The notes under the pieces are model-generated. The model did no database searches and was not told the DNA's origin. It saw only the letters and a program-made list of their open reading frames with translations. From Triglochin maritima (taxonomy: Eukaryota > Streptophyta > Magnoliopsida > Alismatales > Juncaginaceae), in contig OY821772.1 of assembly GCA_963682175.1 (NCBI GenBank), forward strand, positions 47,266,925 through 47,330,924: a DNA stretch of 64,000 nt, given 5' to 3'. The translations under genes and the position numbers were made by a program. Shown one piece after another: positions 20,527 through 37,644 of the stretch; within the stretch, counting starts at the first letter, position 1; every line of letters begins with the position of its first letter.

Positions 20527-20728
20527 GGAATTCTCTAGTGAGCCCATGACTTAATTTTTCTAAATTAAGTCCCATAATATCCACCAATCATTTCAAATTG
20601 TAAGGTAGATTAATAAAAAAACGGTTATGCTAATGAATGGTGAGATTAACTGTGAATAAAATCCAATGATGACATTGTAGGGGGCTTAAATTAAATCAGA
20701 TGAGCCATGGGCTCACTAGAGCTTGACC
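20527..20728 (-). mobile_element. (TA)n-associated miniature element, copy 1 (inverted)
   Basis: A ~202-bp element in reverse orientation relative to copies 2 and 3. It begins AGGAATTCTCTAGTGAGCCC and ends GGGCTCACTAGAGCTTGACC. The interior AACGGTTATGCTAATGAATG is shared with the other copies. TATATA lies on the left, and an interrupted (TA)n tract (20729-20773) separates it from copy 2. Confidence 0.8.
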
Positions 20729-20773
20729 ATATACATATATATATACATATATATATACATATATATATATATA

Positions 20774-20979
20774 GGGTCAAGCTCTAGTGAGCCCAGGGCT
20801 CATCAAATTTAGTTTAAGCCCCATACAATCTCACCATTGGATCTTATTTACAGTTAATCTCACCATTCATTAGCATAACCGTTTTTTTCTTAATCTACCT
20901 TACATTTTGAAATGAGTGGTGGATATTGTGGGGGCTTAATTTAGTTTGATTAAGCCCGGGGCTCACTTGAGAATTTCTG
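20774..20979 (+). mobile_element. (TA)n-associated miniature element, copy 2
   Basis: A 206-bp element starting GGGTCAAGCTCTAGTGAGCC and ending CACTTGAGAATTTCTG, directly abutting (TA)n on both sides. It is almost identical to copy 3 at 27308-27513. Its right terminus resembles that of the large MULE at 27613-37486: both read ACAGAAATT...GAGCCC(C/G)GGGCTTAAT inward. Confidence 0.85.
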
Positions 20980-21061
20980 TATATATATATATATATATAT
21001 ATATATATATATATATATATATATATATATATATATATATATATATATATATATATATATA
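20980..21061. repeat. (TA)n microsatellite, ~80 bp
   Basis: Essentially pure TA dinucleotides. It forms the only spacer between miniature copy 2 and the Pack-MULE-like element, so it is either the insertion target or its duplication. Confidence 0.95.
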
Positions 21062-21739
21062 GTGTGGTATTAGAATGAGACCAGGTCTCAATTTAATATA
21101 ATGAGACCACAAACATACACCATCAAGATCTAATCTAACGGTGACAGAGAAAAAAGGGTAATTTCGTAATCACCACGTCTCCTTCTTCCTCCCCTCTTTC
21201 CTTTCTTCCCAATCGAACCCATCATGTCCTCCTTCTTTCTCCCCTCCTTCGGTCCTTACCAATCGCACACAACCACGCTTGATGCCTCGAACAACCTTCC
21301 AAAAGAAGCCGGAGTTAGCACATCTCCTTCCGATCTCGTTGTCTTTTTTCCAAATCCAAATATAGGTCTCGTAATCTTCCTTTTCCCACTTACAGATTAT
21401 TACTCTTTCTCACATTCCTTCCAATCCCGACTCGAAATTCTATTTTTTTCTTGGAAAATGAAAAATGTACTTGTTCTCTGATCGCGCTTTAACTCCGGAT
21501 CTCACCTCCATTTTCGTTCTTTTCAAAGATTCTTTTTATGCCTAAAAACAAGATAGATAGTTAGATTCGACTTGTTACGAACTATAACTCAGAAAAACCA
21601 ATTTTAGATATGTAGATTTGTGAGATAATCATCGTCGCCTTCAAGTTTGTAGACTTGCAAGATTCTGCGGAATATCATTCTTTCTGCTACTTATTTCGGT
21701 CAGATGTAGTGTTTAGATCTGGTTATACGTTCTGGAGAA

Positions 21740-36000: not shown

Positions 36001-37051
36001 ACAAAATTAATAGCTTTACAAAATCATCAACAGACTCATCGTCATCCTTGCAATGTAGCTCAATCATAAGCTGTTGAATGTTTGTGGTATTAAAGGCGAA
36101 GTTTTTTTCTTTACTATATTTTGCCTCCAAATCAGAGGTTTTCCCACTCCCTCTTATCTTCACCTTTATACCCGAAGCAGGTAAACCTAGAATAGCTGCA
36201 ACATCTTCAATGGAAAAATCTAAGTTTACCCCTCCCACACAAAATTTGTTGCCGTCAACATGCCTACTAATTAAATCTTCCAGCAACCAACGATTCACAT
36301 TCAAATTTGGAATATGAAGAAGTTTATCAAAAGGAGTCACTGACATCCTTTTCAAGTGAGCTTCCTTTGGTTTATATTTTTCCACAAACTCAACAAATAA
36401 CTTCACATAAAATCGATGGTTCACGCAATAGTTAACTGTATCAAAATATTTAGAAATCAGCAAAAATATAAACACAAACAAAATAAAGAATTTAAGTCCC
36501 AGTCATGCACCAGCAGATTTAGAGGTAGGATGAATTGAAGTTTCACCCTTATCTTTGCATTGCAACTTTATTGTGCTCGTCAAATTGCCTACAAGACCAA
36601 AAGATTGTGAGAAATCTTTAGTGGCTCATAATATCTGTTAAACTCGTTTTTCTAAATTTTTTGTGTGCTTAATTGCTATTAAACATGAATCAAAAAATGC
36701 TACTAATTAACAATAACAAGTAGTTTAGAAGAAAGAAAAAAACGGTAAACTCAGACAGAGACCGAAACTTGGTGAGAAGGTAATCGTCTAATAAATGAAG
36801 AAAAACAAACAGAATGAAACTTGGTGAGAATAATAATATGAGATTACAATGTTAAAAAAACAAAAGTATTTATAATCATATTATTACCAACAAAAGTTTC
36901 ATCAAACGACAATAGGAACAAGATTAAAATGCATAAAAAATGTACAAAATGGCAAAAGAACTACGAAAAGGACGTGCTCAAATGGAAAAACCAGAATGAT
37001 AAATAACGTACCTATTGATTTCGTAGTTCCATCTCTGACTGATTCATCCAT
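33053..37051 (-). CDS. PMD-like / coiled-coil / Ulp1-like (C48) protease protein of the MULE
   Basis: Ten exons (-): 37051-37012, 36588-36511, 36435-35774, 35540-35430, 35252-34566, 34179-34082, 33982-33892, 33826-33734, 33634-33410, 33295-33053. They give 2328 nt, 775 aa, in frame throughout. Residues ~40-260 resemble the plant-mobile-domain type found in transposon proteins (RWLLEDLISRH, IEDVAAILGLPASG). Residues ~298-525 hold a basic stretch and a heptad-rich coiled coil (LEVENSELKSLKKKVADLE). Residues ~560-775 match the Ulp1/SENP cysteine protease fold: His664 in GSHWHLFVINF, Gln724/725 in PCPQQ, Cys732 in NCGLYVLKF. The Asp expected in 'YDS' reads Asn681 (SYNSYNS). It may process SUMO or another ubiquitin-like tag; this is inference. 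The donor after exon 4 (TCTAGC|GTGAAT) is the weakest junction. Confidence 0.75.
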
Positions 37052-37099
37052 TCCGGATTTGGGGGAAATGATAGGTGTGACGATTAGGGAGGAAAAGGG

Positions 37100-37290
37100 G
37101 GCGTTAGGGTCAAGATTTCAGTGGAGGCGTGAGGGTGAGATTAGTGAGGAGAAAGGGAGGGCTGAGGGTGAAGATTGCGGTGGAGACGTGATGGTGAGAT
37201 TAGGGAGGAGAAAGGGCGACGTCTAGGTGGAGATTTCGGAGGAGTTAGGGTGAAATTAGGGACAGAAAAAGGGAGGGGTTAAGGTGAAAA
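37100..37290. repeat. Degenerate GGTGAGATTAG(G/T)GAGGAG repeats near the MULE right end
   Basis: Several imperfect copies of a purine-rich ~40-55-bp unit lie between the start codon of the Ulp1-like gene and the right terminus, in what should be its 5' UTR or promoter. On the gene's strand they read as CT-rich leader sequence. Confidence 0.6.
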
Positions 37291-37644
37291 CGGTGGAGGC
37301 GTCAATGTAGGAGACGTGAGTGTAACCCCTCCTAACCCTAACCAAACAAAACCGAATACCAATCCTGCCCTTCGACCAGTAAAAATAACCAGTTAATTTA
37401 ACAAGCGTTGGATAAATATTGAATGGTGGATGATTAAGGGGCTCACTTAAGACTAATTAAGCCCCGGGCTCATTCTATAATTTCTGTATATATATAAATG
37501 AATGAATCACGCCAAGGTTGCATGTGGAATCCGATAATTGATCGGATAAGTCAGAAGCAATCAAATCAAGCTGAAACAAAACCCGAAGAAACACCAACCA
37601 ATCCCGAGTCGGAGACCGCCGTACGGCACCGATCACCGGAACAG

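Follow-up and report, generated by a model that had tools for sequence, protein, structure and literature searches.

Mutator-like elements (MULEs) that home to (TA)n microsatellites and stack up there are already in print, so that what we report is a new locus showing a known behaviour. The MuTAnT family of Medicago truncatula comprises 218 copies, 14 of which lie outside perfect (TA)n and carry signs of a 9-nt duplication; its occupied sites, when amplified, hold about 15 TA repeats per flank (PMC4486113). In guayule, 15 SaTar families have been described in more than 300 catalogued clusters, none of them nested; SaTar-like elements are present in rice, sorghum and citrus as well. Of the two mechanisms discussed in that study, a TA-specific transposase and recombination, the second is preferred on the grounds that a 10-bp duplication is missing from many flanks (PMC5907723). 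For the Ac-mMITE elements of pineapple, 46.1% of the full-length copies are located in (TA)n clusters (PMC8449440). Rice Micron is a further published case of TA targeting, and in a survey of 207 plant genomes such Micron-type elements are listed chiefly for Poaceae and Rosaceae (PMC12550479).

Two other groups of MULEs are relevant for their gene content. In Arabidopsis, VANDAL MULEs encode VANC, a DUF1985 protein that removes silencing. VANC21 binds YAGTATTAY, and the VANC motif forms tandem repeats in noncoding DNA of the element that encodes the protein, upstream of VANA and in the introns of VANB and VANC (PMC5735166, PMC10398659). In Kaonashi MULEs an Ulp1 domain is encoded in the direction opposite to that of the transposase (PMC2528002); these have been described as VANC genes with Ulp1 (PMC13317346).

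We analysed a window of 64,000 nucleotides from Triglochin maritima. Our preferred reading, to which we assign a probability of about 0.85, is that it contains Mutator-like elements targeted to microsatellites and strung together without nesting, a modular array of the SaTar/MuTAnT/Ac-mMITE kind, in which the largest element (M10) is the putative autonomous member, three short elements (S1–S3) are non-autonomous and a second large element (M6) is a Pack-MULE-like relative.

Layout of the array and its microsatellite junctions

Five elements lie end to end and touch one another only through TA or TA/AG microsatellite, as the original prediction held and as reading and measurement confirm. Read base by base, no array member is cut by another. 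The components of the array are as follows.

20514-20526, no strand: outer left TA tract, 13 bp
20527-20727, minus strand: S1, non-autonomous, 201 bp, inverted relative to S2 and S3 (end comparison)
20729-20773, no strand: TA tract with interruptions between S1 and S2, about 45 bp (direct reading)
20774-20979, plus strand: S2, non-autonomous, 206 bp (end comparison)
20980-21061, no strand: (TA)41, 82 bp
21062-27285, plus strand: M6, Pack-MULE-like, 6,224 bp, no transposase detected (TIR match; transposase search)
27286-27307, no strand: imperfect TA tract between M6 and S3, 22 bp (direct reading)
27308-27513, plus strand: S3, non-autonomous, 206 bp (end comparison)
27514-27612, no strand: (TA)34 then (AG)16 (direct reading)
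27613-37486, plus strand: M10, putative autonomous MULE with TIRs, 9,874 bp (domains, TIRs)
37487-37496, no strand: outer right TA tract, 10 bp

TA or near-TA sequence adjoins nine of the ten element ends; at the tenth, the left end of M10, the neighbour is (AG)16 continuing from (TA)34. All five elements in the window have microsatellite on both sides, and in four of them this is TA or near-TA at either end. The window contains 13 perfect TA tracts that reach 10 bp or more; eight lie in or at the array, and the remaining five add up to 69 bp over about 47 kb. The occurrence of microsatellite at all ten element ends is far above the background of TA tracts elsewhere in the window. The long tracts (82 and 68 bp) are internal to the array; those at its outer edges measure just 13 and 10 bp.

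With respect to an 8-11 bp target-site duplication, the flanks of S2 and S3 are identical TA and uninformative, and the left and right flanks of S1 and of M6 differ by a few bases. The decamers that flank M10, AGAGAGAGAG and TATATATATA, are mismatched; therefore, no plain 9-10 bp duplication is seen at this element.

In the surrounding DNA, the TA tracts at 16920-16968 were considered as a further element end and rejected (profile score 1.0). An open frame at 37498-38085, with a sub-threshold Pfam match, starts directly after the outer right TA tract, and in view of this position the array may be near a host gene. The segment 13291-14397 is a host gene exon with MORN repeats that resembles phosphatidylinositol 4-phosphate 5-kinases; the three top matches of this ORF, Magnolia and Colocasia among them, are 52-56% identical, and the ORF extends past the conserved part. 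Tandem repeats with units of 71, 46/97 and 37 bp are present at 41475-42286, and the flanks of the window, taken together, contain CGGTCGACC 24 times.

Termini and gene content of the elements

The 60-base ends of the elements were compared pairwise, with 3000 random 60-mers drawn from the flanks as a control. The left and right ends of M10 score 31 against each other, a value equalled by 0/3000 flank 60-mers. The right end of M10 scores 43 with the right end of S2, 35 with the left end of S1 and 33 with the right end of S3, each equalled by 0/3000; the left end of M10 matches the S ends weakly (best 21, equalled by 24/3000). The left end of M6 scores 27 with the left and 26 with the right end of M10, equalled by 0 or 3/3000 depending on the query end. 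The two ends of M6 give a modest 23 (4 or 9/3000) and its right end is weak or noise against the ends of the other elements (best 20, 40/3000; others at most 17). These scores group S1–S3 with M10 through the right end of M10, match the two ends of M10 to each other and leave M6 as the weakest member. Judged from these alignments, a Mutator-like TIR is common to the elements of the array and is most diverged in M6.

The original prediction, in which the right ends converge on TTTCTG or TTCCTG, is to be corrected: right ends of this kind are present in four of the five elements, the exception being S1, which lies reversed. The Mutator-like identity is upheld by the M10 transposase and the shared TIRs and is weaker for M6.

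A profile of the ten ends recovers the same ten, its training set, at E values of 4e-15 to 1e-5. Other matches within the array are partial, most of them falling on the other strand of a nearly palindromic segment, and outside the array the best match (E 3.1) is no better than that in reversed sequence (1.5). S2 and S3 share the same orientation and agree at 200 of 206 positions; S1 agrees with them at 178 and 179 positions, with five gap positions (88% identity). A literature search with six TIR strings returned no transposon title among the matches listed.

Within M10 and M6 the following features were identified.

28289-31268, plus strand: M10 transposase gene, predicted exons 28289-28360, 28706-30078 and 30440-31268 (exon model and domains)
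31578-32504, plus strand: 306-bp tandem repeat between the M10 genes, three copies, 97% matches, rich in GTAATATTA (repeat detection)
33053-37051, minus strand: M10 second gene, ten predicted exons, DUF1985/PMD-like plus Ulp1-like C48 (exon model and domains)
26110-26350, minus strand: pair of DnaJ-like exon pieces in M6 with approximate boundaries (joint PF00226 match)
26667-27119, minus strand: ORF in M6 like TMK-type LRR receptor ectodomains, a captured piece (protein similarity)

The predicted GT-AG three-exon model of the transposase gene gives a stop-free protein of 757 residues, in which FAR1, MULE, RNase-H-like and SWIM domains each score above the Pfam cut-off (MULE domain PF10551, E 9.5e-27); S1–S3 are too short to hold such a domain. 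A protein search with the long exon found 518 relatives; the named ones among the matches listed are from plants and mostly FAR1-related, and the top identity among the matches listed (120 of 518) is 43%. On this gene model, M10 is putatively autonomous and its MULE transposase is of the FAR1 type.

The second gene, also a GT-AG prediction, runs from 37051 to 33053 and encodes a stop-free protein of 775 residues. This protein matches Peptidase_C48 above the cut-off (E 9e-13), and PMD (E 1e-6) and DUF1985 (E 4.6e-6) both below it. Human SENP1 can be aligned with the C48 part (E 4e-4); of three SENP1 positions that we take to be catalytic, the histidine and cysteine are kept and the aspartate is replaced by asparagine, which makes protease activity of the Ulp1-like part doubtful. 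A homologue search with the DUF1985-like exon ORF gave 593 candidates, none reaching E 0.001. The second protein seems to resemble the Arabidopsis VANC and Kaonashi proteins.

M6 was searched with roughly the N-terminal 480 residues of the M10 transposase, which gave nothing better than E 1.1, and with 240 collected proteins, none of which matched at 1e-3. Its LRR ORF is closest to the ectodomains of TMK3 (E 1e-35) and TMK1 (2e-29). The two DnaJ-like pieces when joined match PF00226 (E 1e-8); the single DnaJ-like ORFs and the alternative LRR frame gave no Pfam match. By eye, the TMK-like fragment seems to be frame-shifted downstream, with the ORF at 26590-27096 continuing the reading. As far as its sequence tells, M6 has the anatomy of a Pack-MULE, in which host-like gene pieces lie between MULE-type ends and no transposase is detected. 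An insert at 22513-22805 of M6, rich in GGACC/GGTCC, has inverted ends CTAGGGGTGAGC...GCTCACCCCTAG and the repeated flank GTTGTGA. It resembles a MITE from a different, presumably hAT-like, family, and a relative that is 84% identical is found at about 54134-54380.

Repeated motifs in M10 and M6

The word GTAATATTA has 16 matches in the 5,272 predicted noncoding bases of M10 versus none in its 4,602 coding bases; there is none in M6 (the GGACC-rich insert included) and a single one in the 47,000 flanking bases. The word and its complement overlap, which reduces the 16 matches to 11 separate sites; these are distributed over transposase introns 1 and 2, the 306-bp repeat, other intergenic DNA and one intron of the second gene. 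Seven of the 16 matches fall within units two and three of the 306-bp repeat. When one repeat unit is kept there are nine matches (six sites), compared with a mean of 0.24 and a maximum of 3 in 300 shuffles. Support for the motif rests on this word-specific test, for which GTAATATTA was chosen after inspection of the data, since a control that admits any 9-mer failed for the noncoding DNA of M10 (the commonest word occurs nine times versus a mean shuffle maximum of 6.4, with values up to 16 in 200 shuffles).

For M6 the any-word control was passed (11 versus a shuffle mean of 3.9 and a maximum of 9), and TTGTGTATTGA occurs seven times in M6 and is absent from M10 and from the flanks. The shorter word TGTAATAT, which has the same direction in 15 of 19 occurrences, is above the shuffles in M6 too (4 versus a mean of 0.62, maximum 3), as is TGTAATA (10 versus a mean of 2.16, maximum 7), so that the motif sets of M10 and M6 separate cleanly only for the longer words. 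On the complementary strand GTAATATTA reads TAATATTAC, one base off YAGTATTAY, a closeness that may be due to chance in AT-rich DNA.

It is conceivable, and we put it forward as a tentative idea that is rather doubtful at present, that M10 unites homing to TA repeats, where it would find a safe harbour, with a VANC/Kaonashi-like candidate that would recognize GTAATATTA in the noncoding DNA of its own element and undo silencing. The motif of M6, TTGTGTATTGA, is a different one, and members of the array would then answer to different anti-silencing proteins. If the idea is true, sequence-specific anti-silencing would extend from the non-TIR VANDAL and Kaonashi elements to a TA-homing TIR MULE, and GTAATATTA would be a named motif that can be assayed for binding. 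Among the papers that text searches returned, no title or abstract described the combination of a MULE with Ulp1 or anti-silencing and TA microsatellites; the EMBO J 2022 study of anti-silencing MULEs in eudicots lay outside the scope of this search.

Assembly of the array and comparison with known systems

We regard it as most likely that an M10-type transposase would move M10 and its short TIR relatives, with insertion favouring TA tracts. A short TA site could have been struck repeatedly, as each insertion would leave TA at both ends and offer the next target. Repair slippage would probably lengthen the TA, and arrays would grow through juxtaposition. A TA preference borne by the transposase is one of two published models. 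The homing and array building put forward in the original prediction fit the local architecture and the published families; the mismatched flanks of M10 speak against them, and the claim itself had already been published.

Recombination offers another route to the TA tracts, which would lead to an identical array by a different mechanism and by which free or circular intermediates with microsatellite filler would recombine homologously and no TA-preferring transposase would be involved. The unlike flanks of M10, (AG)16 to its left and TA to its right, agree with this, as do the many mismatched flanks and the non-TA microsatellites in guayule (PMC5907723). Nevertheless, the AG run of M10 may be later slippage, TA or near-TA is found on both sides of four of the five elements, and the MuTAnT copies outside perfect TA have 9-nt duplications, as cut-and-paste predicts (PMC4486113). 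We regard the recombination route as possible but unlikely. That the TA runs are part of the elements or a by-product, with the elements entering unremarkable AT-rich DNA and TA expanding at their junctions thereafter, is improbable: it would suit the short outermost and long internal tracts, and the maize TAFTA empty sites, where TA spans no more than 6-8 bp (cited in PMC5907723), but leaves five landings at one spot unexplained, and MuTAnT empty sites average nine TA repeats (PMC4486113). A partial local duplication, in which S2 and S3 were copied together with their TA tracts and not inserted separately, would account for their near-identity and shared orientation but is very improbable, given that S1 is inverted and 88% identical and that M6 and M10 give no mutual blastn alignment, so that nothing beside S2 and S3 is repeated.

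Taken as an array of microsatellite-targeted Mutator-like elements, the locus can be set beside the described systems. M6 is similar to Pack-MULEs in holding LRR receptor and DnaJ gene pieces between MULE-type ends. M10 may be like the VANDAL/VANC and KI-MULEs in its predicted second gene, whose Ulp1-like part scores above and DUF1985-like part below the cut-off (VANC has DUF1985, KI a reverse Ulp1), and in its repeats of a short candidate motif in noncoding DNA, whereas those are non-TIR MULEs and M10 has TIRs and lies in TA repeats (PMC5735166, PMC13317346, PMC2528002). Since its ends match each other, M10 is not classed as a VANDAL or KI-MULE.

The SaTar elements and the AgS-/ArS-MULEs of guayule and rice resemble this array, as far as description allows, in being TIR MULEs stacked through TA or mixed microsatellites and never nested, and some SaTar clusters include large MULEs, as M6 and M10 are included here. 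M10 has a predicted Ulp1-like second gene, whereas the available portion of the guayule report makes no mention of one for SaTar or the AgS-/ArS-MULEs (PMC5907723). MuTAnT and AutoMuTAnT parallel the combination of M10 and the S elements, in that both the short non-autonomous MULEs, 200-300 bp long, and their large coding relative lie in (TA)n; AutoMuTAnT is 4.9 kb in length with one gene, whereas M10 is 9.9 kb with two (PMC4486113). Ac-mMITE elements are likewise Mutator-type MITEs clustered through (TA)n without nesting. No autonomous partner of theirs was found in pineapple, whereas in Triglochin maritima a putative one, M10, lies inside the array (PMC8449440). The array is well preserved and still contains its putative autonomous driver.
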